In this document: positions 10,829-29,668 of the stretch, piece by piece
Numbering within the stretch: the stretch's first letter is position 1
How the letters are laid out: the number at the start of each line of letters is the position of its first letter
DNA from: Rhodospirillaceae bacterium
Lineage (GTDB): Bacteria; Pseudomonadota; Alphaproteobacteria; Rhodospirillales; Casp-alpha2
NCBI GenBank assembly: GCA_018665815.1
Contig: JABJBP010000150.1
Span: forward strand, 1 to 38,442
Direction: 5' to 3'
Length of the DNA: 38,442 nt
Position numbers and translations under genes: made by a program
Notes under the pieces: model-generated
Told to the model about the DNA's origin: nothing
Databases searched by the model: none
Seen by the model: the letters and a program-made list of their open reading frames with translations, nothing else

Positions 10829-11635
10829 ATGCGCGTTTTTCTCATGGCCGGCATGACCGCCGGAATTTTGCTATCCACCCTCAGTTCACCGGCCCTCGCC
10901 GCGCCGCAAATCCTGGCCGCGCTGCCAAACGGCGTCGGCGTGCCGTTTACTTGCGCCGAAGGCCAGTGCCAGGCTGATCTTTCCACCTATTGCCTACAGC
11001 AAAAGCGCCCGGCGCCGAGTCACGGCACAGTCTATACCCCGGCCGCCGCCGGTGATTTCGCCTTGGATATCAGAACCCCCAAAGGCACACGCACTGTCGC
11101 CGCTGCCGATCATGTGCGGTTTGTTGAAAGCCGGGGCTTCATGGCCGTCACCGCGGTCATTGCTCAAGGTGAGCTTAAAAAGCTCGGCGGATTGGATGCA
11201 GTGATCCGGGTCGGCAAGTCGGCATCGCTGTTGCCCGAACCCGTCCCCTATGACCCGAACCCGCTGACCGAGAAAGAAATCGCCTACGTCACCAAATGGC
11301 GCCGCGAACAAGGTGCTGAGATGGTCGACAAAATGCCGAAGGCGAAAGCCGCCCAGGTCTTGGCGTCGATCGCCGGACGGATGCCGCAATCGGGGACCGT
11401 CGCACCGCACACGCTAAACCAAATTTGGGAACAGGCTATTGGTGATGAGATGCAAGGCGTGCCGGCCACCCAGGCCGTCCCGGGCCTGCAGCGCGCACGG
11501 ATGGAGTTTAAAACCTGCCAGGAAGGCCCGGCGCGGTATTCCTTCGGCGGAATCCGGCGCTGCCTGGAATACCGCCACGATGACATAATCCGTGATCTGA
11601 ATATCGATTACTGGAAATCGTCGCCCGGCAGCTAA
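10829..11635 (+). CDS. Secreted protein of unknown function
   Basis: This 268-residue protein begins with a typical signal peptide (MRVFLMAGMTAGILLSTLSSPALAAP) cleaved after ALA. The start is supported by GAGGAG 7 bases upstream. The mature part has six cysteines: C43, C48 and C56 near the N-terminus (TCAEGQCQADLSTYC) and CLQQ, TCQEG and RRCLEY elsewhere suggest disulfides. It has two lysine-rich segments in the middle. I do not recognise the family. It stands alone between the broken propeller gene, which was also secreted, and a strong terminator, so it is a single-gene transcript or the last gene of that unit. Confidence 0.75.
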   Translation: MRVFLMAGMTAGILLSTLSSPALAAPQILAALPNGVGVPFTCAEGQCQADLSTYCLQQKRPAPSHGTVYTPAAAGDFALDIRTPKGTRTVAAADHVRFVESRGFMAVTAVIAQGELKKLGGLDAVIRVGKSASLLPEPVPYDPNPLTEKEIAYVTKWRREQGAEMVDKMPKAKAAQVLASIAGRMPQSGTVAPHTLNQIWEQAIGDEMQGVPATQAVPGLQRARMEFKTCQEGPARYSFGGIRRCLEYRHDDIIRDLNIDYWKSSPGS

Positions 11636-11802: not shown

Positions 11803-12981
11803 ATGAGTTACGCCGAGCCCTACAAAGGTCTAAAGATTCTGGACGTCTCGCAGGGTTTCGCCGGGCCCTATTGCATCGCGCTATTTTCGCTTTACGGCGC
11901 CGAGGTGACCAAGGTCGAACCCATCGACGGCGACTGGATTCGGGGCATCGGCAAGACTTTCGGCCAACAAACACCATTGGCCTTGGTGGCCAACCCGCAC
12001 AAACGATCCATCGCGCTGAACATGAAATCCGAAGAAGCGCTGGAAATTGTTTTGAAACTGGCGAAAGACGCCGACGTGTTCATGGAGAGCTTCCGCCCCG
12101 GTGTCGCCGAGCGTCTAGGCATCGGTTTTGAAGACATCAAGGCCGTCAATCCAAAGATCATTTACGGCTCCGTCAGTGGCTTCGGCCAAACCGGGCCTTA
12201 CGCCAAGCGACCAGGATCGGATACCGTGTTGCAATCTTTTTCGGGACTGGTGGCGGTCAACAAAGGCAACGACGGGGTGCCGCACCGAGTCGGCATGCTG
12301 GTTCCCGATACGGTCACCGGCGTCTACGCCCACCAGGCCATCGCCGCCGCCATCGCCGGGCGCGGCGATGAGGCCGAAGGCATTCACCTGGACCTCAGTC
12401 TGGCCCAAAGCATGGGCGCCTTCCTGGCGCCAAAGATCATCGAGCGTTACTTGGAAGGCGGCGAGCCGCGTATCCTCAACGCGCCGGCTGGCAGTTATGC
12501 GACCAGCGACGGCTACGTCGGCATGGCGCTGGTCAAGGAACAGCAATACCGCGATATCTGCATCGCCATGGAAATTCCCGACGCCGGAGATGATCCGCGC
12601 TTTGCCGATTTTGATCTGCGCGCTGCCAACTTCGATGCGCTGAAGGAAATTTTCGACAAACGCTTCAAGGAGCGCACCACCGCCGAATGGGTACAGGTGT
12701 TCCGCGACAACGACATCCTAGGCGACAGGATCAACAATTTCGACGAATGGCTGGCCGACGAGCAGACGCAGACCATGGATATGGCGCCGGACGTCGAACA
12801 GCCCGGCCTCGGCGCGTTTCCTTTCCCAACCGTACCCGGCACGACGCCGCGCGACGCCGAAGGCGAACGCCCGTTCCCAGAAATCGGTGAGCACGGCCGC
12901 GATATCCTGACCAAGTTGGGCTACGACGATGCGGCCATGCAAGCCCTGGTCGATGCCGGCGTCACCGCCTTTCCCGATTGA
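11803..12981 (+). CDS. Class III CoA-transferase (CaiB/BaiF family)
   Basis: This 392-residue protein is a class III CoA-transferase, which moves CoA between carboxylic acids through an aspartyl-CoA thioester; some relatives are alpha-methylacyl-CoA racemases. The N-terminal GLKILDVSQGFAGPYC and the GYGAEVTKVE-like segment (YGAEVTKVEP, 31-40) are typical, and the catalytic aspartate is D169 in VPDTVTGVYAH, the same number as in formyl-CoA transferase. The start at 11803 has AAGGAG about 9 bases upstream; an in-frame TTG/GTG-type start further up lacks this. It is the first gene of an acyl-CoA gene set (isomerase and two SDRs downstream, same strand), so it probably activates the acid that the set degrades. 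The acid is unknown. Confidence 0.88.
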   Translation: MSYAEPYKGLKILDVSQGFAGPYCIALFSLYGAEVTKVEPIDGDWIRGIGKTFGQQTPLALVANPHKRSIALNMKSEEALEIVLKLAKDADVFMESFRPGVAERLGIGFEDIKAVNPKIIYGSVSGFGQTGPYAKRPGSDTVLQSFSGLVAVNKGNDGVPHRVGMLVPDTVTGVYAHQAIAAAIAGRGDEAEGIHLDLSLAQSMGAFLAPKIIERYLEGGEPRILNAPAGSYATSDGYVGMALVKEQQYRDICIAMEIPDAGDDPRFADFDLRAANFDALKEIFDKRFKERTTAEWVQVFRDNDILGDRINNFDEWLADEQTQTMDMAPDVEQPGLGAFPFPTVPGTTPRDAEGERPFPEIGEHGRDILTKLGYDDAAMQALVDAGVTAFPD

Positions 12982-13060: not shown

Positions 13061-13879
13061 ATGACCATTACGCCCCCCAATCCATCCGTGCGCGTCGACG
13101 TCGATGGCGCCATCTGCCGCATCACGTTCGCGCGCCCGGAAAGCCTGAATGCCATCAATTTGGATGTCGTCGCGGCCCTGGATGGCGTGACCAGCGCGAT
13201 CCGAGTGGACGACACCATCCGCTGCGTGATCTTGAGCGGCGCCGGCGATCACTTCATGGCCGGCGGCGACATCAAACATTTCCAAGACCGCATCGCCGCC
13301 GTCCCCGACAAGGCGGCGCTGCGCGATGAGTTCGAGACCCTGTTGGACGATGTCCACAAGGTCATCACCAATATGCGCGCCATGCCGCAACCGATCATCG
13401 CCAGTGTGCGAGGTGCTGCAGCCGGTGCGGGGGTTAGCGTCATGCTGGCCTGCGATCTGGTGTTGGCATCAGACAATGCGTTTTTCACGTTGGCCTATTC
13501 ACATCTCGGCGCCAGCCCGGACGGCGGCTCGACCTTTCAGTTGCCGCGCACCGCGGGCATGAAGCGCGCCATGGAAATCGCGCTACTGGGCGACCGCTTC
13601 GACGCTGAGACGGCGGAACGCTACGGGCTGATCAACCGGGTTATCGCCGACGCGGATCTCGATGCCGAAACCGAAAAACTGGCCACTCGGCTGGCCGCAG
13701 GTCCGGCCCGTGCATACGCCCACACCAAGGCGCTGTTGAACGCCTCGCTGGGCAACACGCTGCAACAACAATTAGACGCGGAATCCGACAGCTTCGCCGA
13801 TTGCGTCACCGGCCCCGACTTCGCCGAGGGCGTCGCCGCCTTCAATGAAAAACGTAAGCCCGCGTTCAAGGGACAATAG
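13061..13879 (+). CDS. Enoyl-CoA hydratase/isomerase family protein, PaaG-like
   Basis: This 272-residue crotonase-fold protein has ARPESLNAIN near residue 24, the oxyanion-hole segment FMAGGDIKHF (65-74) and GAAAGAGVSVMLACDLVLAS. The two glutamates of hydratases are absent at their usual places (GVSVM for GCELA and YSHLGASPDGG for PEIxxGxxPGAGG). Instead D154 sits in SPDGG, as in PaaG-type isomerases, which shift double bonds or open epoxides in CoA esters. So isomerisation is more likely than hydration. The start at 13061 is preceded by AGGGAG with 7-base spacing. It lies 79 bases after the CoA-transferase and 33 bases before the first SDR, consistent with one operon. Confidence 0.86.
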   Translation: MTITPPNPSVRVDVDGAICRITFARPESLNAINLDVVAALDGVTSAIRVDDTIRCVILSGAGDHFMAGGDIKHFQDRIAAVPDKAALRDEFETLLDDVHKVITNMRAMPQPIIASVRGAAAGAGVSVMLACDLVLASDNAFFTLAYSHLGASPDGGSTFQLPRTAGMKRAMEIALLGDRFDAETAERYGLINRVIADADLDAETEKLATRLAAGPARAYAHTKALLNASLGNTLQQQLDAESDSFADCVTGPDFAEGVAAFNEKRKPAFKGQ

Positions 13880-13912: not shown

Positions 13913-14671
13913 ATGAACGAGACAGAATCCCCCCTAGAGGGCAAGGTCGCCATCGTTACCGGCGGGGCCAGAAATATCGGCCGGTCGATCGCCAAGCGCC
14001 TCGCGTCCTACGGCGTGTCCGTTGTCGTCAACGCTGTGCAAGACCGTGAAGCCGCCGACGCCGTGGCCCACGAAATTTTCGAAGCCGGCGGCCGCGCCTT
14101 GGCCCACATCTGCGACATCACCGATGAAGACGCAGTGAATGAGATGGCGGAGACCGCCGTCAAAGCCTTCGGTTCGGTCGATATTCTGGTCTCCAATGCG
14201 TCAATCCGCGCCCAGAAACCTTTCCTGGAGATCGACACTGAAGAATGGCACCGGACCTTAGCCGTGCCCCTGGACGGCGCATTTTTTTGCGCGCGTGCCT
14301 GCGCGCCGCACATGATCAAAAACAAGTGGGGCCGGATCATTACGATCGGCGGCATCTCGGCCTACATCGGCACCGCCAATCGGGTCGGGCTTTTGGCGGC
14401 GAAATCCGGCCTTGTCGGTTTAACGCGGGGTTTGGCGGTCGAGTTGGCAGATCATGGGATCACCTGCAATGTCGTCTCGCCCGGCCATATCAACACGGTC
14501 CGCCCCGGCACCGCCGGTGCCCGACCGCCCATGAAGGTCGAGCCGCCGATCAAGCGCTTCGGTCATGTCGAGGAGATTGCCGGCATGGTCCATTACCTGT
14601 GCCTGCCGGAAGCTGCCTACATCACCGGCCAGACCATGCACATCAATGGCGGCCTCTATTACGGGGTCTGA
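13913..14671 (+). CDS. SDR-fold protein without the catalytic tyrosine (first of pair)
   Basis: This 252-residue protein has the short-chain dehydrogenase fold with the nucleotide motif TGGARNIG (about 17-24) and the C-terminal ITGQTMHINGG typical of FabG-like members. The catalytic tetrad is eroded. The YxxxK tyrosine is leucine (LLAAK), the asparagine of the usual VNL segment is proline (AVPLDG), and the NNAG motif is SNAS. The lysine remains. Thus it may bind NAD(P) or a CoA ester without standard carbonyl reduction, or use other residues. An SDR subgroup with such replacements exists in Alphaproteobacteria, as I recall. AAGGAG precedes the ATG. The next gene, read 7 bases after its stop, is a paralogue with the same defects. 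Confidence 0.85.
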   Translation: MNETESPLEGKVAIVTGGARNIGRSIAKRLASYGVSVVVNAVQDREAADAVAHEIFEAGGRALAHICDITDEDAVNEMAETAVKAFGSVDILVSNASIRAQKPFLEIDTEEWHRTLAVPLDGAFFCARACAPHMIKNKWGRIITIGGISAYIGTANRVGLLAAKSGLVGLTRGLAVELADHGITCNVVSPGHINTVRPGTAGARPPMKVEPPIKRFGHVEEIAGMVHYLCLPEAAYITGQTMHINGGLYYGV

Positions 14672-14678
14672 GTACGCC

Positions 14679-15452
14679 ATGGAGGACCGTGCCAAACCTT
14701 TGGCAGGGCGTGCCGCCCTGATAACAGGTTCGTCGCGCAATATTGGCCGGGCAACGGCACTGGCACTTGCCGGCGACGGTGCGGATATCCTCATTCACGG
14801 CCAGGCCGATGCGGAGGCAGCAGAACAAACCGCCCAAGATATACGGTCACTTGGCGTCCGCGCCGCTGTGCATCTTGTCGATATCACCGACCCTGATGCC
14901 CCGGAAAGATTGACCAACGCGGCCATGACGGCATTCGGACGGATCGACATTGTCGTCTGCAATGCCGCCATCCGACGCCAGAATCCGTTTTTGGACATTC
15001 CTCTTGAAGAATTCCGCGAGGTTATTAGCACTGATCTCGAAGCCCCGTTCCGGCTTTTACAGACAGCCTTGCCGATGATCATCGAGGCCAATAAACGAGA
15101 TACCTACGGCGGGCGGGTAATCACGCTCGGCGGCACCAGCGCCTATGTGCAAACCCAAGAGCGCGCCCATGTAGTCGCCGCGAAAATGGGATTACTGGGG
15201 ATTACCCGGACCATCGCCACTGAATTCGGCGCCTTGGGGATCACCGCCAACATGGTCGCACCCGGCCATGTCGATACATCACGCGGCACGTCGGCGGGCA
15301 AACGCTCCGCCAGCGGGTCTCACCGGTTGATGGAACGGTTTGCCGATGTCAGCGAGATCGCCGGCATGATCCGCCACCTGTGTGGGCCGGACGGCGCCTA
15401 TATTTCCGGCCAGTGCATTCACATCGACGGCGGCACCTACTTCGGCACCTGA
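14679..15452 (+). CDS. SDR-fold protein without the catalytic tyrosine (second of pair)
   Basis: This 257-residue paralogue starts at 14679, 7 bases after the preceding stop; its ribosome binding site is weak, which fits translational coupling. The nucleotide motif TGSSRNIG and the C-terminal ISGQCIHIDGG are intact. The usual tyrosine is valine (VVAAK) and the tetrad asparagine is aspartate (STDLEA). NAAIRRQNPFLDI parallels NASIRAQKPFLEI in the first SDR, showing that the two arose by duplication. They may form a hetero-oligomer. It is the last intact gene of the acyl-CoA set before a region of broken genes. Confidence 0.84.
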   Translation: MEDRAKPLAGRAALITGSSRNIGRATALALAGDGADILIHGQADAEAAEQTAQDIRSLGVRAAVHLVDITDPDAPERLTNAAMTAFGRIDIVVCNAAIRRQNPFLDIPLEEFREVISTDLEAPFRLLQTALPMIIEANKRDTYGGRVITLGGTSAYVQTQERAHVVAAKMGLLGITRTIATEFGALGITANMVAPGHVDTSRGTSAGKRSASGSHRLMERFADVSEIAGMIRHLCGPDGAYISGQCIHIDGGTYFGT

Positions 15453-15460
15453 TCGCCGAT

Positions 15461-15508
15461 CTCAGTTCCAGGCTCAGCTCCAGGCTCAGCTCCAGGTTCA
15501 GCTCCAGG
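15461..15508. repeat. 12-bp tandem repeat, three full copies plus partial
   Basis: CAGGCTCAGCTC occurs at 15469-15480 and 15481-15492, with a one-base variant (CAGGTTCAGCTC) at 15493-15504 and partial copies at both edges. It lies just after the second SDR stop and runs into the stop codon of the minus-strand oxidoreductase fragment. Confidence 0.85.
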
Positions 15509-16230: not shown

Positions 16231-17118
16231 TTAGGTTTTCGCCTCAATCCGCGCCATCAAGTCCAACGTACGCTGCGCCTGATCGACGATCGGGTAATCA
16301 ACAAAATAACCATCGACCTGAATGGAAGCCAGGCCGTTGGCCTCGGCTTCGGTGAAGGCGGTGACGACGGTTTCGGCGAAGGTGACATCTTCGGCTGTTG
16401 GCGTGAACACGGCGTTGACCGGATCAACCTGATCAGGGTGGATACACAGCTTGCCCTGATAGCCCATATCGCGGACGGCTTCAGCCGAGGCCACGCAGCC
16501 TTCCGTTTCCTTGATGTGGATCCAGACCGTATCGATAGGCGGCTCCAACCCTGCGGCGCGGCTGGCCAGCGCGATCTCGGCGCGGGCCTGGGCGATCTCG
16601 GCTTCGCCTCGGGTCCAACGCATACCCATATCCTTGGTGTAATCGCCGGCACCGAAAGACAGACGCTGAATACGTGTCTCACACGCCGCGATCTCGCGGA
16701 CATTAGCGACGCCCCGGCCGGTCTCAATGATCGGGATCAAATCAATACCGCTGGCTGGTAAATCTTTCTCTCGCTCTAACTGGGCAATCATCCAATCAAC
16801 GGCTTGTAATTGTGCCGCGGTCTCGATTTTCGGCGCGATGATGCCGTCGACACCGGCTGCCACGACAACCAGCAAATCGCCGAAACAAAATTCCGTGTCA
16901 TAGGCGTTGATCCGCACATACCCCAAGCCCGTTCGCGCGCCCTGCAGCGCCGCGACCACGGTTTCGCGGGTCGCGATTTTTTCGGCGACGGCAACGGCAT
17001 CTTCCAAATCCAAAATGACCGCGTCTGCGGCCAGCGTCAGGGCTTTTTCGACGCGTCTTGGGTGATTGCCCGGAGCAAACAGCATGGTTCGGAACGGTCT
17101 GGCGGATGATGTCGTCAT
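16231..17118 (-). CDS. HpcH/HpaI aldolase/citrate lyase family protein (CitE-like)
   Basis: This 295-residue TIM-barrel enzyme belongs to the CitE/malyl-CoA lyase group, which cleaves or forms C-C bonds in beta-hydroxyacyl-CoA esters or hydrolyses malyl-CoA. Landmarks are FAPGNHPRRVEKAL near the N-terminus, ILDLEDAV (35-42), the substrate arginine in VRIN (R69), the metal ligand E131 in IPIIETG and the D159 region GAGDYTKD. The C-terminal KLCIHPDQV is also typical. The start is preceded by AGGA. It is read opposite to the SDR/CoA-transferase genes but probably shares their acyl-CoA theme. A small exported-protein gene lies 28 bases upstream on the same strand. The substrate is not determined. 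Confidence 0.88.
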   Translation of the reverse strand: MTTSSARPFRTMLFAPGNHPRRVEKALTLAADAVILDLEDAVAVAEKIATRETVVAALQGARTGLGYVRINAYDTEFCFGDLLVVVAAGVDGIIAPKIETAAQLQAVDWMIAQLEREKDLPASGIDLIPIIETGRGVANVREIAACETRIQRLSFGAGDYTKDMGMRWTRGEAEIAQARAEIALASRAAGLEPPIDTVWIHIKETEGCVASAEAVRDMGYQGKLCIHPDQVDPVNAVFTPTAEDVTFAETVVTAFTEAEANGLASIQVDGYFVDYPIVDQAQRTLDLMARIEAKT

Positions 17119-17520: not shown

Positions 17521-18678
17521 ATGAGCCTTTTCGCCAACCCGTCGGCAAAGCCCGACAGCCCCTACAGCGCCGCCGAACGCGACGTGATCAGCCTTGCCGG
17601 CGCCGCTGAGGCCCGAGATGCCATCAGCCTTTGCCCAGCCTATGAAGCAACCCCGTTGCATACCATGGCGGCGGAGGCCGAAGCTTGGGGAATTAACGCC
17701 GTTTACTTCAAAGATGAGGGGCCGCGGTTCGGCCTCAACGCGTTTAAATCATTGGGCGGCGCCTATGCGGTGGCGCGGGTACTATCGGCCCACCTGTCGG
17801 AGCAACTGGGACATGAAGTCAGCATCCGGGAACTTGCGCGCGGCGAACATACGGTTCTGACCGCACCAATCACCGTCGCCTGCGCCTCATCAGGCAACCA
17901 TGGCCGCGCTGTCGCCGCCGGTGCCCGGCATTTTGGCTGCCAAGCGGTGATTTATGTGCCGGGTGATACGCTGGAAGCTCGCGCCAAAGCGGTAGAAAGT
18001 GAAGGCGCGAAGGTTGTTCGCCATTCCGGGACTTATGACGATGCCGTCCGTGACGTCGAGACAACAGCGCGCGATGAAGGCTGGGTGGTGATTTCGGATA
18101 CCTCATGGCCGGGTTATGAAGACATCCCAAAGACCGTGATGACCGGCTATACGGTGATGGCCGCCGAGGCGCTGGAGCAGATGATCGCATTGGACGCGCC
18201 CAGGCCAACACATGTGATCATCCAAGGCGGTGTCGGCGGCGTTGCCGCGGCGACTTGCGGCTATCTAGCCGAAACCCTGCCTGACGATTATCCAACCATG
18301 ATTGTCGTCGAGCCCGAAGCCGCGGCTTGTGTGCTTGCCAGTGCCCAGGCCGGCAAACCCAGCCCCGCCACGGGTGATCTGCAAACCATCGTCGGGCCAT
18401 TGAACTGCCAGGAGGTTTCCGCCATTGCCTGGCCGATCTTGGCAAACCGCGTCACCGCCATCGCGACGGTCACGGACGATGAAATTCTCGCCGCCATAAC
18501 TGATCTCGGCGCCCGCGACACAGCGATCGGGACCGGGCCTGCAGGCGCCGCCGGTTATGCAGCAGCGAAACAAATCTTGGCCAATCCGGGCATGCGCGAA
18601 ACCCTAGGGCTGACATCAAATTCCGTGCTACTGCTGTTCGGCACCGAAGGCTCGGTCGCCGGCGTGGGCGGTGGCTAA
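17521..18678 (+). CDS. Diaminopropionate ammonia-lyase-like PLP enzyme
   Basis: This 385-residue fold-type II PLP enzyme closely follows diaminopropionate ammonia-lyase, which converts 2,3-diaminopropionate to pyruvate and ammonia. The PLP lysine is K76 in RFGLNAFKSLGGAY, the phosphate and base loop is SSGNHGRAVA (123-132), and DTSWPGYEDIPKTVMTGY (about 193-210) contains the aspartate said to act on the L-isomer. In the E. coli enzyme the residue before GNHG is an aspartate (D120) used for the D-isomer; here it is S124. That suggests L-only activity or a different beta-substituted amino acid. The C-terminal glycine loop (LLLFGTEGS) is present. It converges on the M81 peptidase gene with a 4-base overlap (CTAA). 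Confidence 0.85.
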   Translation: MSLFANPSAKPDSPYSAAERDVISLAGAAEARDAISLCPAYEATPLHTMAAEAEAWGINAVYFKDEGPRFGLNAFKSLGGAYAVARVLSAHLSEQLGHEVSIRELARGEHTVLTAPITVACASSGNHGRAVAAGARHFGCQAVIYVPGDTLEARAKAVESEGAKVVRHSGTYDDAVRDVETTARDEGWVVISDTSWPGYEDIPKTVMTGYTVMAAEALEQMIALDAPRPTHVIIQGGVGGVAAATCGYLAETLPDDYPTMIVVEPEAAACVLASAQAGKPSPATGDLQTIVGPLNCQEVSAIAWPILANRVTAIATVTDDEILAAITDLGARDTAIGTGPAGAAGYAAAKQILANPGMRETLGLTSNSVLLLFGTEGSVAGVGGG

Positions 18679-20198
18679 CTGGGCATATCCCAGTCCATAT
18701 CCGGATCAAGCGGATAGATAGGTCGGTTGAAGCCATCAAAATCAAAATTATCGAAAACCGGTGAGGTTAGGCCGGGCGCGTCCACTTCGATGACCTGCCC
18801 GGACGGGAACCACGGATCGAACCCGGCGCGGAAATGGCCGCGCGATTTGACGACAATGGTCCGCGCGTCTTCAATTTTCAGCCCGAACATCTGAAAGAAC
18901 ACCGGATCGGCGCACTGTTTGCGCTTTGATACGACGACAATCTTAATGCCGCCGACCTCGAGCAATGCCGTCGGCCCAAGATCGAGGCTTTGATCAGCAT
19001 AGATCCCAAGCGTGCCCACACATTGCCCGTCGTGCAATGCCGCCACGGTCGCCTCGGCTTCAAACCGCTTGGAAAATGTGCTTTCTGTCTCCGCATTGAA
19101 CACGGCCCGGAAAGTGATGCCGATACCTTGGACCGCCGCCGATGCCGCCAATGCCGGATCATGAAAAATCCCGTAATAACAATCAAGTACGCCGGCTTCG
19201 ATCAACGCTTCAAGGATATAGGTTGTATTACCCCGCCCGCCACCGCCGGGGTTATCGGCAACATCGGCCATGATTATCGCCGGATGGGTCAAATTGTTCC
19301 CGCTGGCCTGAGCGCGGATCACCGCGGTCGTGAGTGACGTCAAATTGATTTTGAATTGTCCACGGCTGGCCCATGCGCGCCCAGCGATATCGCGGGCGAG
19401 CGTTTGCGCCGCCGACCCGTCACCCCTCGCGGTAACGATGACCGCAATGCCATTCATGGCCGTATTCCCATAGGCAAAGCCAGCAACGACAGAGACATTG
19501 GCGATGGCGTCGGTGAGCATCGATTGACCGTAATTGATCAAATCGGCGTAAGGGCCCTTTGCACTTAGAAGCGTCACCGTCGGCGCCACCATGGGCAGGC
19601 GGATAAACGCCGTCTCGGGCTTCATGCCGTCAAATATTTCCGACATCAACCGTGCCGCCTCGGCCGCCCGTTCACGCTGATCAACGTGCGGGTTTGTGAT
19701 GTAGGAAACCAAGATGTCGGTCTCAGTGACCATGCGCTCGGAGATATTGGCATGCAAATCCAGGGTCGCGATGACCGGCACGTCCGGGCCGACGACACGG
19801 CGGACCATCTCAAACGCCTCGCCATCCGGATCATCACTCTCAGTGGTCGTCATCGCGCCGTGGGCTGAAAAATACACCCCGTCCAAAGGCATGGCATCTT
19901 CAAGCCGCGTCTGCATTTCATTACGAACGGCTTCAAAAAACGCGTGATCGGCGGGGCCGCCGGGCTCGGCGCCGGTGATCAAGATCGGCACCAATTCCCA
20001 CTCAATACCAATCGCATCCATTTCATCGCGAAATCCCGGCAATTCCGCCGGTGCGCTGGGGTGTGGATGGGCAAGATCGTCAGCCAATGCCTGACCGGCC
20101 AGGTGGCAGCATGACCGGAACGCCGCTTCAGCGGAAACCGGCGCAAAACTGTTGCTTTCCAGGTGCATGCCCATCAGGGCGATACGTTTTTTCGCCAA
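18675..20198 (-). CDS. M81 family metallopeptidase (MlrC-like)
   Basis: This 507-residue zinc enzyme matches the M81 (microcystinase C) family, which hydrolyses amide bonds of small, often non-standard peptides. The N-terminal HLESNSFAP replaces the common HETNTFSP. Zinc ligands D147 and H149 lie in ATLDLHAN and H171 in NPHVDQRERA. The middle contains ADVADNPGGGGRGNTTY (typical DNPGGG motif), and the C-terminal domain has the VVVKSRGHFRAGFDPW segment. There is no signal peptide, so it acts in the cytoplasm on imported substrates. It lies 9 bases after the fused ABC transporter on the same strand and downstream of the Opp-type importer, which makes a peptide-use pathway likely. Confidence 0.9.
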   Translation of the reverse strand: MAKKRIALMGMHLESNSFAPVSAEAAFRSCCHLAGQALADDLAHPHPSAPAELPGFRDEMDAIGIEWELVPILITGAEPGGPADHAFFEAVRNEMQTRLEDAMPLDGVYFSAHGAMTTTESDDPDGEAFEMVRRVVGPDVPVIATLDLHANISERMVTETDILVSYITNPHVDQRERAAEAARLMSEIFDGMKPETAFIRLPMVAPTVTLLSAKGPYADLINYGQSMLTDAIANVSVVAGFAYGNTAMNGIAVIVTARGDGSAAQTLARDIAGRAWASRGQFKINLTSLTTAVIRAQASGNNLTHPAIIMADVADNPGGGGRGNTTYILEALIEAGVLDCYYGIFHDPALAASAAVQGIGITFRAVFNAETESTFSKRFEAEATVAALHDGQCVGTLGIYADQSLDLGPTALLEVGGIKIVVVSKRKQCADPVFFQMFGLKIEDARTIVVKSRGHFRAGFDPWFPSGQVIEVDAPGLTSPVFDNFDFDGFNRPIYPLDPDMDWDMPS

Positions 20199-20207
20199 GC
20201 CGGCCCC

Positions 20208-23200
20208 CTATTCCACCGCCGCGCCGGAAATCTGGCGCTGCACCAAGTGCGCGTAAAGCCCACCGCGCGCCAGTAACTCGGTATGGCGGCCGCTTTCAAT
20301 GATCCGCCCATGGTCCATGGCGACAATCAGATCGGCGTCGCGGACCGTCGATAAGCGGTGCGCAATGACCACCGTCGTGCGCTCCGCCATGAGATCCTCC
20401 AAGGCACTACGGACCATTTGCTCGCTGACCGCATCGAGATGCGACGTTGCCTCGTCCAGGATCAACACCGGCGCATCCTTCAAGAACGCCCGCGCGATGG
20501 CGACCCGCTGGCGCTGACCGCCGGACAGACGCATGCCACGCTCGCCAACCGGCGTCTCCAGGCCGTCCAGCAGACTGGCGGCAAAGTCCCTGAGCGCCGC
20601 ACGCTCTATGGCGTCACTAAGATCGGCTTCGCCGGCGTCGGGTCGCGCCAACATGATGTTGGCCCGGAGCGTGTCGTTGAACAGGTAGGTATCCTGCGCC
20701 ACCAGCGCGATCCGCGCGCGCAGTTCATCTAACCGGTGATTACGAAGGTCGGTGCCATCAAGGGAAATCTGCCCGGTCGCCGGATCCCAGAACCGCAACA
20801 ACAGATGCGCCAGCGTCGTCTTGCCGGCACCCGACGGACCAACCAAGGCAATGGTTTGGCCGCCTTCGATATTCAGGCTGACGTGATCTAGTGCCGGTTC
20901 ACGACGGCTGGGGTAGGTGAAACTGACGTCATCAAGATGCACGCCAGCGGTGTGCTCGCCATCAACTTCGCCGGGACCATCGGTTACTGGCACGACTTCG
21001 TTCTCGACAGCGTTGAGGCGGCGTGCGGAACCTAAGGTATCCGCCAATTGACGCCCAATGTGCGCAATTTCGGAGACGGGCAGGAAGGCCGCCATGGCCA
21101 ACAAGGTCAACATTGGCAGCAAGCCGCTATCAAGATTGCCGGCCTGAACCATCGAGGCGCCGGTCGCCACTACGGCCAAGCCGCCGAGACCCGTAATAGT
21201 TTCCAGCAATGCGGTTTGAACCGTGAGATCGCGGAAGAACGGCAAGCGGATTTCAAGATAATCGCCGACTTTGGCATCAAATTCCTGACCACGCCGGTCG
21301 GACTGCTGAAAGGCCACAATCTCGGCCAGGCCTTGGACCGTATCGACGGCATGAGCGTTCAAATCACCCAGCGCTTCGCGTGTTTTCGAGCCCAGGGTAT
21401 CAAGTCGGTTGCGAACCAGGAATGGGCTCAAAGCCACCAGTCCCAAAAACGGCAGCAGGGCCAGCGCCATGGGCCATCCGGTAAAGCCCAAAAACACCAT
21501 GACGAGGGCCGGCACCAGAATGGCGACAAAAGTTGGTGCGATTGTGTGGGCGAAAAAATACTCAACCGTCTCAACGTCCTGGGTTGCCATCCCAACGAGA
21601 TCCCCGGTGCGGCGGCGCAACAAGTAGGCGGGCGCCAATTTGTCGAGCTTGCGGAACAGATCAATACGCATTTCGGCGAGCATCCGAAACGCCATGTCAT
21701 GCGCGATCCAAGACTCCAACCAATGGAAAACGCCGGCCACCGGCGCGAGGGCGCAAAGCCAGATAATATGGTTCATATACGGCTGACCGGATTTCACCGC
21801 GGCGACGGCGAGCGCGCCGACTACGCCAATGCCGATATAGGCGAACACGCGGGTGATACCGAAAAACAAGGTCAGCATGAGTTTCCCACGCCACGGTTTG
21901 ACGTAACCCAGTAGTGCGCGGAAGGCTTGCGACCATGTCATGCCCTCGGCGCGGATGATGGCATCGGTCGGTTCGGCGTCCTCGGCGGCGTCAAAAAATC
22001 CAAGCTCAGCGTCTTCGTCGCCATCCACCTCGCGCGAAACCAGAACGGGCGGCGCGCCGGTACTAGCGCCTTCTTGGGCCTGGGCCGCCATCAAACGCTG
22101 ATAGGGGCCGGGACGAGAGATCAATTCACGGTGCGACCCAGTATCGGCAATGCGGCCGTCGTCCAATACCAATATCCGGTCGGCATCGATAACGCTGGAA
22201 AGACGATGCGCAAAAATCAATGTCGTGCGGTCCTTCATCAACCGGTCGAGGGCCTCTTGAATAATCCATTCGTTTTCCGCATCAACCGCCGACAAAGCTT
22301 CATCAAGAACCAACACCGGTGCGTCACGAAGCAGCGCGCGGGCAATCGCGATGCGCTGGCGCTGGCCACCCGACAGCTTGACGCCGCGCTCGCCGATTAC
22401 CGTCCCGTAGCCTTCCGGCAGGGCGGCGATAAATTCGTGGGCGTTTGCATGCCGGGCCGCTTGTTCCAACTCGGCTTGCGTGGCGTCCGGCTTGCCGAAA
22501 CGCAGGTTTTCCCCAACGCTGCCGTGAAACAAATAAGTGTCCTGGCTGACCACGGCGAGATGGCTGCGGAGCGTGGAGAAATCAAGTTCCGCCAAATCGA
22601 CGCCACCAAGCTTGATGGAACCGGTGCTTGGCTCATAAAGCTTCAACAATAATTTCAGGATCGTTGATTTCCCCGAGCCACTCGGGCCGACCACACCAAT
22701 TCTTTCACCGGCATCAACGGCAAAGGAAACGCCGTCGTGGGCGGCGGTCGGACTGGCCGGGTAGCGGAAGACGACATCTTCGAAGGCGATCGTCGGTGCC
22801 AGGACACGCGGATCGCCCGGCGCGTCATTGTCGGGAACCAAGGGCTCGGCATCGAGAATTTCATAGATCCCAAGTGCCGCCGACAATCCGACCATCCCAT
22901 TATGCAAAAGCGCACGGAGATCGCGCAGGGGCCGAAAAACTTCGGTGCCCAGCATCAAGACAATGACCAAAACCTCGAGCGTTGTCTCGCCGTGGGTTAC
23001 TCGCCACGCGCCGGCCCCCAGTGCGGCGGCAGCACCCACCGCAATGCCGGTGTCGGTGATCCCGCGGGCGGCTGCGTTGGTGGCCAGCACCCACATGGTC
23101 GTGCGGAACAAATCGCGCGCGCGGGTCGCAAGCTGTTCAATCTTCGCCGTCGATTGTCCGAACGCCTTCAGGGTTCCAAGGCCTTGGATGGAATCGAGAA

Positions 23201-23915: not shown

Positions 23916-24818
23916 TTAGCGCGAGCGCAGCTTCGGATCGAGCGTGTCGCGAACGCCATCGCCAAACAGGTTAAATCCAAACACTGCCAAGCTGATAGCC
24001 ACGCCGGGCCAAATGGCGACCCAAGGGGCGGACTCGGCAAATTCCTCGGCACCACCCTGCAGCATCAAACCCCACGCCGGTGTCGGCTCCTGGACACCCA
24101 TGCCCAGATAACTCAATGAGGCTTCCAACAAGATCGCCTGACCCAGAAATGAAGTCAGCATGATCAGGAACGGCGCCATGACGTTCGGTGCCATATGCCG
24201 AAGGATGATCCGAGCATCACTGAAGCCCAGGGCTCGGGCAGCATCCACATAAGGAATTTCTCGAATAGCCAAAGCGTTTGAGCGGACCACGCGGGCGCAC
24301 TGTGGGATGAACGGAATGGTAATAGCGATAATCACATTAACCGTCCCCGGTCCCAATGTGGCGACAACGGCCAGCGCCAGGATAATCAGCGGGAACGCCA
24401 TGATGACGTCAACCAAGCGCTGGACAATCAAGTCGAACGTGCCGCCGAAGTAGGCACTGGCAACGCCAAGAACCATACCGCAGGTCGCGCCGACAATGGC
24501 GCAGGTGAAACCGACGAACAGGGCCGTCCGCGCGCCGAAAACGATCCTGGTCAGAAGATCGCGGCCGAATTGATCGGCACCCAATATATATACGTCGTTC
24601 GGGGCTTCCAGCATGTGTTCGAGGTCGTTGTCCTCGGGCGGGAAGAAGGTCAGGAACTCGGCGAAAATGGCCATCAAGACCATCATGACGACGATCGCGA
24701 ACCCGCCCGCAGCCAATGGCTGCTTGCGAACCAAATCTATGGCGACCTGATGCCATGCCTTCTTCTCGGCAAGTTCAGCGAAGTCGTCGTCGACTTGAAT
24801 TTCAGATGCAGTGGCCAT
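23916..24818 (-). CDS. ABC transporter permease, OppC/DppC family
   Basis: This 300-residue inner-membrane permease matches the DppC/OppC type of peptide importers. It has an N-terminal soluble tail, a first helix (about 35-57), a periplasmic segment with LGADQFGRDLLTRIVFGAR (the family's DxxGRDxLSR motif) and five further helices. The coupling EAA loop lies near DAARALGFSDARIILRHMAPN. The start at 24818 has AAGGA upstream; a longer in-frame start at 24860 would overlap the OppB gene. It pairs with OppB (24830-25801), 11 bases upstream. Confidence 0.92.
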   Translation of the reverse strand: MATASEIQVDDDFAELAEKKAWHQVAIDLVRKQPLAAGGFAIVVMMVLMAIFAEFLTFFPPEDNDLEHMLEAPNDVYILGADQFGRDLLTRIVFGARTALFVGFTCAIVGATCGMVLGVASAYFGGTFDLIVQRLVDVIMAFPLIILALAVVATLGPGTVNVIIAITIPFIPQCARVVRSNALAIREIPYVDAARALGFSDARIILRHMAPNVMAPFLIMLTSFLGQAILLEASLSYLGMGVQEPTPAWGLMLQGGAEEFAESAPWVAIWPGVAISLAVFGFNLFGDGVRDTLDPKLRSR

Positions 24819-24829
24819 ACCAAATGTCC

Positions 24830-25801
24830 TTAGCTGTAACGGATGCGCGGATCGAGCCACGCATAAAGGATATCAACGAAAAGATTGGTGAAGACGAAGA
24901 TCACGACCACCAACATGACCAATTGCTGGGTCATATTGAAATCTTGATTTTCGACCGATTCGACGAACAACTTGCCCAATCCGTTCAGATTGAAGACCTG
25001 TTCGGTGACCACGAGGCCGCCCATCAAGAAGGCGAATTCAATGGCGATAATGGTGACCACCGGCAACAGAGAGTTCTTCAACGCGTGCCGGTTGATGATT
25101 ACCTTCTCAATCAAACCCTTGGCCCGTGCGGTCCGCACATAGTCTTCACGCAGCACTTCCAAAAGCGCCGAGCGTGTCATCCGCGTGGCAACGGCGGAAT
25201 AGCGGTATCCCGTGGCGACGGCAGGCCAGATCAACTGGGCCAAGTTCTCCATCGGGTCTATCCAAATGGGCACATAGGTAATCGGCGGCATCCAAGGCTC
25301 GCCGAAGAAGTGCTGCGAGCCGATCAATAGGCCCAGAATAATCAAAATGCCAAGCCAGAACGACGGCATGGCGATGCCCGCGATTGAAAACGTGCGGACG
25401 ACATAATCGATCCAAGTGTTCTGCTTAACGGCGGAAATGATGCCCAAGGGAATGGCGATGGCAACGGCAACGACGGTCGCCATAATTGCGACCTGCAGGG
25501 ACAACTCAAAGCGAATGGCAATTTCGTGGACAACGGGAAAGCCCGTCCACATGGAATCGCCCAAATCAAAAATCACATAACCCCAGAGGAAATCCAGGAA
25601 CTGGACGAACAGCGGTTGATCCAGGCCGAGGTTTTTCTGGCAGAGTAATATCTCTGCCGGGTCGGCATAAAGACCGGTGCCGGCCAGGCGCAATTCGCAG
25701 ACGTCACCAGGGATCAGACGTAATAGGAAAAAAACAAATATCGCCGCACCGATCAACGTCGGTATCAGCATCAGTATTCGCTTCAAAATATACTTCGACA
25801 T
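24830..25801 (-). CDS. ABC transporter permease, OppB/DppB family
   Basis: This 323-residue permease starts with MSKYILKRILMLIPTLIGAAIFVFFLLRLIPGD, the canonical OppB/DppB N-terminus. It has about six transmembrane helices and an EAA-type coupling loop (REDYVRTARAKGLIEKVIINRHALKNSLLPV). It forms the heterodimeric channel with OppC for peptide or related solute uptake. A strong hairpin in the 98-base gap before it separates it from the binding-protein gene, which may set different expression levels within the operon. Confidence 0.93.
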   Translation of the reverse strand: MSKYILKRILMLIPTLIGAAIFVFFLLRLIPGDVCELRLAGTGLYADPAEILLCQKNLGLDQPLFVQFLDFLWGYVIFDLGDSMWTGFPVVHEIAIRFELSLQVAIMATVVAVAIAIPLGIISAVKQNTWIDYVVRTFSIAGIAMPSFWLGILIILGLLIGSQHFFGEPWMPPITYVPIWIDPMENLAQLIWPAVATGYRYSAVATRMTRSALLEVLREDYVRTARAKGLIEKVIINRHALKNSLLPVVTIIAIEFAFLMGGLVVTEQVFNLNGLGKLFVESVENQDFNMTQQLVMLVVVIFVFTNLFVDILYAWLDPRIRYS

Positions 25802-25843
25802 AAAAGTACCTAATCCCTTGAAAACTTAACGCTTAAGGATGCC

Positions 25844-25876
25844 ACCCACCGCCCGGAATATTTCCGAGCGGTGGGC
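25844..25876 (-). other. Intercistronic stem-loop between binding-protein and permease genes
   Basis: In the minus-strand RNA, CCCACCGC-containing arms form about 15 pairs (two G-U) around a three-base loop. No T-run follows directly. Such hairpins commonly protect or partly terminate mRNA so that the binding protein is made in excess over the permeases. Confidence 0.6.
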
Positions 25877-25899
25877 GTACCCAATTCCGACAATGTCGG

Positions 25900-27504
25900 T
25901 TACTTGTCCAGCCAGATGTTATCCAAGTGCTGGTTCAAGTAATGGCTCGGTGCGATCTTCCAGCCCTTCACGTAGGAACGGTGCGGGTTGATCTTGTACC
26001 ACCACAACGTAATGGCCGCGACCATCGCGTCGTCGATCACCCGTTTTTCGTACTGACGGATCATCGCGCGTTGCTCCTTCGGATCGGCGGAGCGCAGCAG
26101 CTTCTCGTAGATGGCATCGGCTTTCGCGTCGCCACCGGCGGAGTAGTTGTTGCCGGCCGTCGTCAGGAACTTCGTAATATCGGCAATCGGGTTAATAACC
26201 GACTGACAGTTGAAATCGATGGAAACATCGAAATCTTTCTTTTTACGAAGCGTCGCATAGAACGGCGGTGAAGGCTGCACGCGCTGCGTCACCTTCATAC
26301 CGACTTTCTTCCATTGGTCGATCAACCAGGTGCCGACAACCTTATAAGGCTGGTCGACGCCGCGGTTGTTGAGCACGAACTTCAAGTTCGGGACGCCCGC
26401 AGCAGCCAACAATTTTTTGGCTTCGGCGCGGCTGGCACCGATGTCTTTAGAGTAACCGGCCAGCTTGCTCAGTTCAGCTTCGTTCGCCGCGAACGGATGG
26501 TTCGGGAAAACGATACCGCCAACGGTTTTCACGATGGCGATACGGCTGAGGTATTTGGATCCGCCATGACGATCAACGGCATACGTCAGCGCACGACGGA
26601 CGCGAGGATCATCGAAAGGCTTAACCTTGTGGTTCGGTGCGAACATCAAGACACAGTTCCAGTCACTTTCCTGGACCGTGATCTTGTTGCCCAGCGCCTT
26701 GACGAGATCGTCACGGTGCTTCGGCGGGAACCCACGGAACTCGATGGATGCGCGGTCACCACGAATGGCTTGCACGCGAACGGCGAGTTTCGGCGCTGAA
26801 ATGGCTTTAATGCCATCCAGGTAAGGCTTGCCTTTATGGTGGTAGCTGGCATTACGGACACCTTCAACGAAGGAACCTTTTTGGTGCTGCACGAACTTGA
26901 AAGCACCGGTGCCATTAACGTTTTTCTGGTGCCATGTGTAACCGTGCGTGTCCAAATCCTTCTTCGAGTAGATGAAGTTGAACGGCAAGGCGAGCGCCGG
27001 AATGAACGTACCCGTCGGGAACGCCAGCTTGAAGATGACAGTTTCATCATCCGGTGCCGTGATTGACGCAACGGCCTTAAAGAACGCTTTCCGCGCGCTG
27101 GGAATACCCTTCGGCGGGAAAATGATCTTGTCCATGGTGGCTTTGACGTCTTGTGCCGTCATCGGCGTGCCGTCATGGAACTCAACGTCCTTGCGGATTT
27201 TGAAGGTGAACTTGGTGCCACCTTCTTCACCCTTCGGCACGTCGCCCACGCAGACGTCGCAAACGAAGTCTGTCGGTGAGGCCGGATTGTCCGGATTCAC
27301 GCGAATGAGGGTTGAGTAGTACGGCCGGATCGGGTGGATCATGCCGAACGTCGTTTCCTTATGCCCGTCATAAGACGGGATCTTCGAGCCGACGACGTAG
27401 TTGAGAATGCCACCCTTTTTGGGTGCCGCCTCAACCGTACCGCCAACGACGAGACCGGCCCCAATAAGGGTGGCCAACGCCAGTTTAGTGGTCAGGTTAG
27501 TCAT
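25900..27504 (-). CDS. Peptide ABC transporter substrate-binding protein (family 5, DppA/OppA type)
   Basis: This 534-residue exported protein starts at the ATG at 27504, preceded by AAGGAG about 6 bases upstream; a longer in-frame frame reaches 27567 without support. The signal peptide MTNLTTKLALATLIGAGLVVGGTVEAAP ends in AxA; the absence of a lipobox cysteine indicates a soluble periplasmic protein. The family 5 signature is visible as FKIRKDVEFHDGTPMTAQDV (about 100-120), and FDDPRVRRALTYAVDR is the typical later motif. A CVCDVCVGD segment (three cysteines) near residue 80 is unusual and could form a disulfide or bind metal. It delivers peptides or similar solutes to OppB/C. The neighbouring M81 peptidase suggests that peptides are the cargo. 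Confidence 0.92.
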   Translation of the reverse strand: MTNLTTKLALATLIGAGLVVGGTVEAAPKKGGILNYVVGSKIPSYDGHKETTFGMIHPIRPYYSTLIRVNPDNPASPTDFVCDVCVGDVPKGEEGGTKFTFKIRKDVEFHDGTPMTAQDVKATMDKIIFPPKGIPSARKAFFKAVASITAPDDETVIFKLAFPTGTFIPALALPFNFIYSKKDLDTHGYTWHQKNVNGTGAFKFVQHQKGSFVEGVRNASYHHKGKPYLDGIKAISAPKLAVRVQAIRGDRASIEFRGFPPKHRDDLVKALGNKITVQESDWNCVLMFAPNHKVKPFDDPRVRRALTYAVDRHGGSKYLSRIAIVKTVGGIVFPNHPFAANEAELSKLAGYSKDIGASRAEAKKLLAAAGVPNLKFVLNNRGVDQPYKVVGTWLIDQWKKVGMKVTQRVQPSPPFYATLRKKKDFDVSIDFNCQSVINPIADITKFLTTAGNNYSAGGDAKADAIYEKLLRSADPKEQRAMIRQYEKRVIDDAMVAAITLWWYKINPHRSYVKGWKIAPSHYLNQHLDNIWLDK

Positions 27505-27560
27505 TGTAGTCTCCTTCCCAGTGAAATTCGGAGCCTTCCAGCTCCGTTTTCGTATGCGCC

Positions 27561-27576
27561 GCCCCAACAGTGGGGC
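27561..27576 (-). other. Small hairpin between OppF and binding-protein genes
   Basis: GCCCCA and TGGGGC form a 6-bp stem with a four-base loop just after the OppF stop and before the binding-protein start. No T-run follows. Confidence 0.35.
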
Positions 27577-27579
27577 TGA

Positions 27580-28614
27580 TCACACCTCTGTGCAGGCCAC
27601 CCAGTGGCCCGGCTTTACTTCCCGAAATTCGGGAAACTCTTTAGAACAACTATCAACGGCCATCGGGCAACGCGGATGAAACACGCATCCGGACGGCGGA
27701 TTGATAGGGCTCGGAATTTCGCCCTTGATGATCTTATGACCCCGGCTGTTTTCCAAATCAGGATCAGGGATCGGCACCGCTTCGAGCAGTGCACGCGTAT
27801 AAGGATGTAGGGGGGTGTCGAACAATTCGTCACAATCGGCCAGCTCGACCATATGGCCGAGATACATCACTGCAACGCGGTGTGAAATATGCCGGACAAC
27901 GCTTAAGTCGTGCGAGATAAACAAATAGGTCAGGCCCAGTTGCTCGCGCAAGTCTTCCAGCAGATTAACCACTTGCGCCTGGATCGACACATCCAATGCC
28001 GAAACCGCCTCATCGCAAATGATGAATTCCGGGTCCATCGCCAAGGCTCGGGCAATACCGACACGTTGGCGCTGGCCGCCCGACATCTCATGCGGATAGC
28101 GGTCGGCGAAATTGGCTTTAAGGCCACAAGTCGTCAACAATTCGACAACCCGTTTCTGGCGGTCGCCCTCGTCGGGAATAATATTGTGGACGCGCATCGG
28201 TTCGGAAATGATATCCCCGATCTTCATGCGCGGGTTCAATGAACTGAACGGATCCTGGAAGATCACCTGGATCTTCTTGCGGATGTCGATCATTTCATTG
28301 CCGTCCAAAGGCATCAGATCCTGGCCGCGGTAGATGATTTCACCGGCGGTGGGGTCTTCCAGCTTCAGAATGCAGCGCCCGGTCGTCGTCTTGCCGCAAC
28401 CGGACTCGCCGACCAACCCCAGGGTTTCCCCCTTCATAATCTTAAAATCGATGCCGTCCACGGCCTTGACGTGGGCGATGACGCGCTGAACGAAAACACC
28501 TTCCGTCACCGGGAAGTGCATCTTCAGGCCCTTGACGTCGATCAGGACTTCGTCTGTCGGCTTGCCGCGGAACTGGGCGTCGTCGCGGAGTGCCGCGTCG
28601 TTGGGCGCGTTCAT
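27580..28614 (-). CDS. Oligopeptide ABC transporter ATP-binding protein, OppF/DppF type
   Basis: This 344-residue cytoplasmic ATPase has the Walker [10 protein letters not shown] (about 70-78), a Q-loop ([14 protein letters not shown]), the signature MSGGQRQRV and Walker [13 protein letters not shown]. The C-terminal oligopeptide-transporter extension with CVFHPRCP and later cysteines is present and binds an iron-sulfur cluster in some relatives. The start overlaps the OppD stop as ATGA. It forms the ATPase dimer with OppD and powers OppB/C. Confidence 0.93.
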
Positions 28615-29609
28615 GACGCCTCCTTCATGGTCGCACCTACTTTTTCTTTATGGAAACACGCGGTCGTATGGCCGTCCGCAACCTCATCCAAAGATGGGAA
28701 GCCTGTCGCGCATTCGTCGGTGGCGAACCGGCAACGCGGCCGGAAGGCGCATCCGTCATCCAGCATGGTCAAATCCGGCGGCTGTCCTTCAACCGGGTCA
28801 AGCTTCGCTTGGCGCTGCTGATCCATGCGCGGCACGGACTTCAGAAGCGCCAGCGTATAGGGATGATGGGGCCGATAGTAGATATCGGCAGCGGTGCCGC
28901 TTTCGATAATTTTGCCCGCATACATGACGTTAACACGGTCCGCATAGCGCGCGACCACCCCCAGATTATGGGTGATGACAATCATCGCAACGCCCAGATC
29001 GCGGGTCAGGTTTTTCATCAATTCAAGAATCTGCGCCTGGATAGTCACGTCCAGCGCTGTCGTCGGCTCGTCGGCGATAATCAGCTTCGGCTCGCAACTC
29101 AGCGCCATGGCGATCATCACGCGTTGGCGCATGCCGCCGGAAAGATGGTGCGGAAACTGGACTAAGCGCCGTTCGGGCTCGGAAATACCAACCATCCCCA
29201 GCAACTCAACGGCCCGCTTATGGGCGTCCGCCTCCGAGATATCGGTGTGCGCGAGCATCGTCTCAGTCAATTGTAACCCGATGGTCAAAACCGGATTCAA
29301 AGACGTCATCGGTTCTTGGAAGATGATAGAAATGTCCTTGCCACGGACATTGCGCATCTCTTCTTCTTCAAGATCCAACAGGTTCTTGCCGTCAAAACGG
29401 ATTTCTCCGTCGACGATCTTGCCTGGCGGCCAGGGGATTAATCTCAAGATAGACATGGCGGTAACGGATTTACCGCAGCCGGATTCACCGACTACCGCGA
29501 CCGTCTCACCTTCATCCACCGTGTAAGAAACGCCGTCCACTGCTTTCACAACGCCTGCGGACGTAAAAAATTGCGTTTTAAGATTGTCGATCTCTAACAG
29601 AGTCGCCAA
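28611..29609 (-). CDS. Oligopeptide ABC transporter ATP-binding protein, OppD/DppD type
   Basis: This 332-residue ATPase has Walker [10 protein letters not shown], the Q-loop [10 protein letters not shown], the signature LSGGMRQRV and Walker [13 protein letters not shown], plus the C-terminal oligopeptide extension ([14 protein letters not shown]). I place the start at a TTG (29607-29609) because GGGAGG lies a few bases upstream and the protein then begins [14 protein letters not shown] as in the family; an ATG at 29648 has no ribosome binding site. It is the first gene of the Opp operon, with a TTGACA promoter about 60-90 bases upstream. Confidence 0.92.
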
Positions 29610-29668
29610 TGGTCCTCCCTTTCGCGCTTCGCCCGATTTTTCGAGCATTATTCGAACGCATTTCCGAA

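Follow-up and report, generated by a model that had tools for sequence, protein, structure and literature searches.

Two adjacent tyrosine-less SDR genes of a Rhodospirillaceae bacterium belong to an apparently unstudied SDR subfamily with a seemingly rebuilt active site

In the textbook definition, SDRs are recognized by a Tyr-Lys pair. In the FabI type the motif takes the form Y-x6-K, and a Tyr-less case is reportedly represented by eugenol synthase, another SDR-type enzyme. (R)-3-hydroxybutyrate dehydrogenase has Ser-Tyr-Lys, and the substrate carboxylate is presumably bound there by polar residues, which we take to be Gln94 and Lys152, at the columns that correspond to positions 90 and 148 of E. 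coli FabG (FabG numbering is used for all residue columns below). BbsCD (7pcs), a (hydroxybenzyl)succinyl-CoA dehydrogenase organized as a heterotetramer with pseudoenzyme subunits, needs both of its genes. For toluene degradation, a published account places the CoA-transferase BbsEF, the hydratase BbsH and the two-SDR BbsCD in one pathway (PMC10818641).

The window analysed here is the whole 38,442-nucleotide stretch of contig JABJBP010000150.1 from a Rhodospirillaceae bacterium (assembly GCA_018665815.1). It carries two adjacent SDR genes, SDR-A and SDR-B (A and B), whose coordinates and frames had been given in an earlier note made from the sequence alone and proved correct on re-reading:

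13913..14671, + strand: SDR-A, 252 aa, open reading frame and translation
14679..15452, + strand: SDR-B, 257 aa, start at ATG 14679

Seven bases separate the SDR-A stop from the SDR-B start. The two proteins are 45% identical, and among the 37 SDR-like places in the genome SDR-B is the best other match to SDR-A. Affiliation of both with the SDR superfamily fold is evident from Pfam scores far above cut-off (PF13561/PF00106), and the structures were predicted with pLDDT 92.7 and pTM 0.92 for SDR-A, and with 89.7 and 0.90 for SDR-B. A fold search run with the SDR-A model gave FabG-type SDRs as top structural matches (Z about 36; 2uvd, 4dmm and others), and a similar fold is found in (R)-3-hydroxybutyrate dehydrogenase (6zzs and 4trr, Z 34.4 and 33.6). 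BbsD is present among both sequence and structure matches. Just past the SDR-B stop, four near-identical 12-base repeats (ctcagctccagg-like) are arranged in tandem (15461-15508).

The best-scoring NCBIfam models are NF009466 and TIGR01830, and each protein is below the curated cut-off in 25 of the 25 NCBIfam models listed for it. With 221.5 of 222 bits, SDR-A falls half a bit short of the broad NF009466. Its score against TIGR01963 is far under the cut-off (190.6 of 307.05 bits), which sets it apart from (R)-3-hydroxybutyrate dehydrogenase in spite of the shared fold; SDR-B reaches 181.7 bits with NF009466 and 147.8 bits with TIGR01963. No solved member of the subfamily described below stood out among the 60 best PDB profile matches, the names of which are those of other SDRs. 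The best single-domain score in this search (259.6 bits) belongs to a FabG, and the five matches displayed as alignments are all canonical SDRs.

Residues at the active-site columns are as follows:

14207-14209, + strand: SDR-A R99 (FabG 90)
14267-14269, + strand: SDR-A P119 (FabG Asn110)
14351-14353, + strand: SDR-A G147 (FabG Ser138)
14363-14365, + strand: SDR-A Y151 (FabG 142)
14381-14383, + strand: SDR-A R157 (FabG 148)
14387-14389, + strand: SDR-A G159 (FabG 150; His in relatives)
14390-14392, + strand: SDR-A L160 (FabG Tyr151)
14402-14404, + strand: SDR-A K164 (FabG Lys155)
14501-14503, + strand: SDR-A R197 (FabG 188)
14973-14975, + strand: SDR-B R99 (FabG 90)
15033-15035, + strand: SDR-B D119 (FabG Asn110)
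15132-15134, + strand: SDR-B G152 (FabG Ser138)
15144-15146, + strand: SDR-B Y156 (FabG 142)
15162-15164, + strand: SDR-B R162 (FabG 148)
15168-15170, + strand: SDR-B H164 (FabG 150)
15171-15173, + strand: SDR-B V165 (FabG Tyr151)
15183-15185, + strand: SDR-B K169 (FabG Lys155)
15282-15284, + strand: SDR-B R202 (FabG 188)

These readings agree with the earlier note in that the YxxxK tyrosine is replaced (Leu in A, Val in B), as is the tetrad Asn (Pro in A, Asp in B). To this they add the catalytic Ser138, absent from that note, which is Gly in both proteins. Lys is consequently all that remains of the classical Asn-Ser-Tyr-Lys tetrad in A and B. The note had also described the cofactor motif and the Lys as kept. 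Lys155 is indeed present, but TGxxxGxG is retained only in a modified form because its middle Gly is Asn in both proteins (TGGARNIG in A and TGSSRNIG in B, i.e. TGxxxNIG). Like FabI-type proteins, the pair is without Tyr at the YxxxK place; unlike them, it is also without Tyr seven residues before the Lys, where R157 (A) and R162 (B) are found. With FabG-type SDRs (3-oxoacyl-ACP reductase) the pair shares the whole fold, the best-scoring family models, Lys155 and the NAG-motif Asn, whereas Ser138, Tyr151 and Asn110 are replaced, and Arg90, Arg148 and Arg188 are gained, together with His150 in B. The set R90-R148-H150-K155-R188 in the absence of Tyr151 is thus complete in B (5/5), while A lacks one of the five, having Gly in place of H150.

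Loss of Tyr alone is not rare, since 11 of the 37 SDR-like places of the genome have none at the YxxxK column. Lys is kept in seven of the 11, and two of the 11 are presumably FabI-like by motif. A third Tyr-less SDR of the same genome, L159 (G000:C4:5253-5972; FAGMNAIHGYNGRAHVSASK), belongs to a sister group, and lower-scoring second matches of similar extent were seen in many of 20 genomes compared.

Relatives were collected at the order level (matches at E ≤ 1e-70 in 17 of 150 genomes), at the class level (8 of 385 genomes, E up to 1e-60), and in named genomes, where the best 80 of 576 related stretches were taken. A sequence was accepted as a member if it scored better against SDR-A than against E. 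coli FabG, and residue signature was not used for picking. Among the best 80 of 576 stretches, 64 loci hold a subfamily member and 16 are canonical FabG-type. The 97 sequences comprise 96 distinct members, one being identical to another (locus L115 repeats L034); because the best 80 of 576 stretches were taken, they are biased toward SDR-A relatives and represent no census.

The earlier note treated active-site loss as a property of the pair, and this view was not borne out, as the loss is common to the whole subfamily. Tyr151 is missing in 95 of the 96 members, and so is Ser/Thr at position 138 (95/96), while K155 is present in every one (96/96). L103, counted as a member, has Tyr151. The other columns are occupied by R90 (91/96), R148 (85/96), H150 (85/96) and R188 (92/96), with His or Tyr at 142 in 71 members and Asn110 kept in 11. 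All five of R90, R148, H150, K155 and R188 are combined in 76 members, and at least one is missing in 20. On the cofactor side, the NAG-motif Asn is found in 94 of 96 members and N21-I22-G23 is invariant in a 38-row alignment. Seventeen canonical FabG-like ORFs, a fair control for the residue signature, without exception carry T90, S138, Q148, N150, Y151, K155 and M188 (17/17), with N (15), C (1) or D (1) at column 110; R90, R148, H150 and R188 are absent from all 17. The difference between members and canonical ORFs at these four columns shows that the active site was not simply lost, and that a fixed set of basic residues replaced the former site. The subfamily-wide replacement also lends support to the non-classical active site that had been proposed for the pair. 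A sequencing error behind the missing Tyr was rejected because the frames are intact and the same change is seen in 95 of 96 members.

In a tree of 43 rows, 38 subfamily rows are split from 5 FabG-type rows at 100/100, and a quick tree of 101 rows gives the subfamily a support of 99. In both trees SDR-A and SDR-B group inside the Tyr-less subfamily. Since the two are relatives within one such subfamily, at the identity given above, their Tyr losses look like one ancestral event and not like two coincidences. Member records come from Alpha-, Beta- and Gammaproteobacteria, Chloroflexi, Acidobacteria, Rokubacteria and others, and many are metagenome bins. Two betaproteobacterial loci, L071 (4163-4975 and 10862-11788) and L072 (4575-5684 and 9977-10732), each contain two different members about 4-6 kb apart. 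In annotated records, members are named just "SDR family oxidoreductase". A search of open-licence papers retrieved no description of the subfamily or of an MmgE/PrpD-linked Tyr-less SDR, and to our knowledge no activity, substrate or cofactor has been reported for any member. The subfamily is, apparently, unstudied.

A missing classical tetrad could also mark decaying or inactive proteins, and window SDR-A, unlike the other 40 A and B genes compared, is changed at position 150 too. We regard this explanation as very improbable, given the intact frames, the replacement signature across the subfamily, and dN/dS ratios between genomes of 0.03-0.30 over 14 comparisons (Nei-Gojobori; the six with dS above 1 are indicative only). 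The ratios are 0.03-0.22 in seven comparisons of the A group and 0.28 in the eighth (G095 vs G119), 0.10-0.30 in four comparisons of B, and 0.15 and 0.21 in two comparisons of the related single genes L120-L122. The suggestion that the pair is not in decay therefore stands, on the signature and on these ratios. Within genomes, A vs B gave 0.44 and 0.64, higher, as for old paralogues.

Grouping of sequences indicates that A and B are two old, separate orthologous groups. The A group (14 rows) is supported at 93/82 in the 43-row tree and at 99 in the quick tree, and the B group (6 rows) at 100/99 and 99, respectively. A recent tandem duplication in the window was rejected because A and B group separately with genes of other genomes. 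An A-type match was found in 38 of 48 genomes of the window's family, including one in G548 that is 49% identical and without the locus context. B is present in 7 of the 48, directly behind A in all seven, and an eighth A-B pair occurs outside this family, in the genome G114. Of the five genomes in the window's genus, four have A and two have B. The B genes uniformly have Asp at position 110 (8/8). No B was found in 31 of the 38 A-bearing family genomes, which are mostly drafts (the G547 contig ends 173 bases past A). Because A is so much more widespread, and B when present is always behind it, A usually seems to do without B.

Among the 41 A and B genes that were fetched, counting G548, His150 is kept in 40, window SDR-A being the sole exception. 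Its codon at 14387-14389 is GGG (Gly), three base differences from the CAT of three A relatives that were read, and represents either a lineage-specific further loss or a sequence or assembly error in a single genome. Arg188 was read in 38 of the 41 genes; the search pattern did not fit the other three.

The surroundings of the pair were compared in 33 loci, comprising 32 of the 38 family loci and G114 (G532, G537, G538, G552, G553 and G554 were left out). The 33 stretches are of unequal length, and distances were taken between stop-to-stop frames. Neighbours in the window are:

10829..11635, + strand: protein with a signal-like N-terminus (c7), no Pfam match; recurs upstream of the crotonase
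11803..12981, + strand: class III CoA-transferase, ATG 11803, open from TTG 11749
13061..13879, + strand: crotonase of the enoyl-CoA hydratase/isomerase family, PaaG/oxepin-CoA hydrolase-like, directly upstream of SDR-A, conserved
16231..17118, - strand: HpcH/HpaI (CitE-like) C-C lyase, divergent; 15/33 loci
18675..20198, - strand: MlrC / M81 metallohydrolase, divergent downstream of A; 26/33 loci
23916..29648, - strand: Dpp/Opp-type ABC importer with two permeases, two ATPases and a substrate-binding protein (25900-27567)

The conserved locus is composed of the crotonase and SDR-A, followed by the divergent CitE-like lyase, MlrC and the Dpp importer. Upstream of A and in the same orientation, a crotonase is found no more than 35 bp away in 26 of the 33 loci, and 30 have one if the limit is set at 3 kb. 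MlrC is missing from seven loci; for six of them the sequence stops within about 3.1 kb, and in the remaining one, G531, it is the Dpp permease that comes at once. A Dpp-type permease (DppC) was found in 25 loci and B in 8. The earlier note put the pair behind a CoA-transferase and a PaaG-like isomerase, which holds for the window, but against the PaaG model the crotonase gets 217.8 bits, with the curated cut-off at 345.15. Conserved co-occurrence with the CoA-transferase, which would have pointed to a defined pathway, was not observed: the gene is within 1 kb of A in 6 of the 33 loci (G000, G557, G558, G559, G549 and G550), with B (G000, G558) and without it, and is thus a local feature of some loci.

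Some further features of this region can be listed. In several relatives the protein at 10829-11635 has two copies upstream of the crotonase. An ORF of 1194 aa (20208-23792), located between the MlrC and Dpp permease genes, joins two ABC transmembrane stretches and two ABC ATPase stretches in a single chain. A PLP enzyme at 17521-18678 is above the cut-off of the diaminopropionate ammonia-lyase model NF006058, and among the 33 stretches, which differ in length, this gene was seen in the window only. Naming a substrate from the MlrC, diaminopropionate-ammonia-lyase-like and CitE-like neighbours was considered, and nothing tested supports one.

The arrangement in the window invites comparison with BbsCD, as two SDR genes stand alongside a CoA-transferase and a hydratase, and the order CoA-transferase, crotonase, two SDRs recalls BbsEF, BbsH and BbsCD in the account cited above (PMC10818641). 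According to this explanation, A and B would form an obligate heteromer with one degenerate subunit, acting on a CoA ester supplied through the adjacent CoA-transferase and crotonase. Constant placement of B directly behind A (7/7 in the family, one more outside) is consistent with it, and so is the additional loss of H150 in window A, while B keeps it. However, in the other seven pairs A retains R90, R148, H150, K155 and R188, and the CoA-transferase is within 1 kb in just 2 of the 8 pairs. Both members here are without Ser and Tyr, so that neither gene has the tetrad we take active BbsD to possess, and no thiolase gene was recognized among the subset of window ORFs scanned. The second SDR gene is optional and was not found in most genomes with the first one (31 of 38, drafts), which is not the pattern of an obligate two-gene unit. 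We therefore consider an obligate heteromer unlikely. In the window, where A has lost His150, B is the better-equipped protein, and a BbsCD-like division of labour may exist in this organism alone.

The idea of a conserved pair in a conserved locus is accordingly upheld by the eight A-B pairs, and the idea that A and B need each other is not. The pair order is conserved, but the residue changes belong to the subfamily and are not linked to the pair. Solitary occurrence with no shared context had been named as evidence against the proposal; solitary A is common, but its shared context is kept.

We have also addressed the wider gene context of the subfamily. Neighbours were counted with profiles from single seeds, after removal of ORFs overlapping SDR genes. 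Of the 96 members, 19 have an MmgE/PrpD-family gene no more than 300 bp away on their own strand; the corresponding figures are 8 for a crotonase and 5 each for TctC and TctA. In many members, L037, L039 and L041 among them, no MmgE/PrpD gene is present up to 2.5 kb away. The 17 canonical ORFs have no gene of the tested families within 5 kb; for context they are a weak control, since taxon was not matched and several of the records are from Firmicutes or Desulfobulbales. On a Pacificitalea plasmid the member gene is situated amid TctABC and several annotated MmgE/PrpD genes. On a Paracoccus versutus plasmid, the member lies between TctABC and, two genes off, the tricarballylate dehydrogenase gene TcuA, at a locus that also has MmgE/PrpD genes. 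The signature (Arg, R-x-H-x4-K, Arg) is present in the proteins of both plasmids. In one relative, L136, an RraA-type aldolase gene directly adjoins A. Typical substrates of MmgE/PrpD, CitE-like, RraA and PEP-mutase/isocitrate-lyase proteins are branched di- or tricarboxylates or their CoA esters. The substrate of the window clade may differ from that of TctABC-linked members, since a Dpp importer, not TctABC, is found there.

Building on the fold, the retained Lys, the cofactor-side residues, the replacement signature and the conserved context, all of them shown above, we tentatively favour, at somewhat short of an even chance, the view that A and B are NAD(P)-dependent oxidoreductases for a polycarboxylate or its CoA ester, with a site rebuilt once at the base of the subfamily. 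The sequences show that Ser138 changed there to Gly and Tyr151 to a residue without evident acid-base function, that Asn110 was released, and that Arg90, Arg148, His150 and Arg188 were gained, while the fold, the cofactor-side residues and Lys155 were retained. By analogy with (R)-3-hydroxybutyrate dehydrogenase, positions 90, 148 and 188 probably face the substrate. As Arg90 and Arg148 occupy the columns we take to be Gln94 and Lys152 of that enzyme, the substrate should bear more than one carboxylate, which the arginines would hold. Lys155 would hold the ribose of the nicotinamide, and proton transfer, normally the task of Tyr151, would fall to an imidazole or phenol at a new place (His150, or His/Tyr142), the likely acid-base group. 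A bound dinucleotide fits the conservation of K155, the NAG Asn and N21-I22-G23, and the reaction is most likely NAD(P)-dependent. It would belong to a pathway that breaks down a polycarboxylic acid or the CoA ester of one.

The main alternative is that these proteins are non-redox enzymes on an SDR scaffold that act on a polycarboxylate or CoA ester by dehydration, epimerisation, decarboxylation or ester/thioester chemistry, with NAD(P) structural or absent. Joint loss of Ser138 and Tyr151 (each in 95/96) removes the classical proton donor, and frequent neighbours are of dehydratase, lyase and hydratase type. Retention of Lys155 and the cofactor-side residues, needless for non-redox use, makes this alternative rather doubtful, if less so than an obligate heteromer.

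With the oxidoreductase reading, A would be the core gene of the crotonase-SDR locus, and B an additional, accessory SDR from a sister orthologous group, with Asp for Asn110. That A so often occurs with no B beside it speaks for activity of A by itself. The two may be separate enzymes for successive or stereoisomeric steps, or may form a mixed oligomer. In its full form, to which we give slightly less credence, the proposal describes monophyletic NAD(P)-enzymes without Ser138 and Tyr151 that would use His150 (or His/Tyr142) and three arginines on polycarboxylates or CoA esters, with an optional B (Asp110) that alters or extends the activity.

In place of an odd pair of genes, the explanation now centres on an SDR subfamily, apparently unstudied and with a rebuilt site, whose members A and B lie in a conserved locus. 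A conserved branch in which Lys is kept, and Tyr and Ser have given way to a fixed Arg/His set, would point to another way to run, or to leave, hydride transfer, and the label "SDR family oxidoreductase" on its members may mislead. Gene context supplies concrete candidate substrates. If true, the proposed mechanism would be a new catalytic solution within the SDR superfamily.
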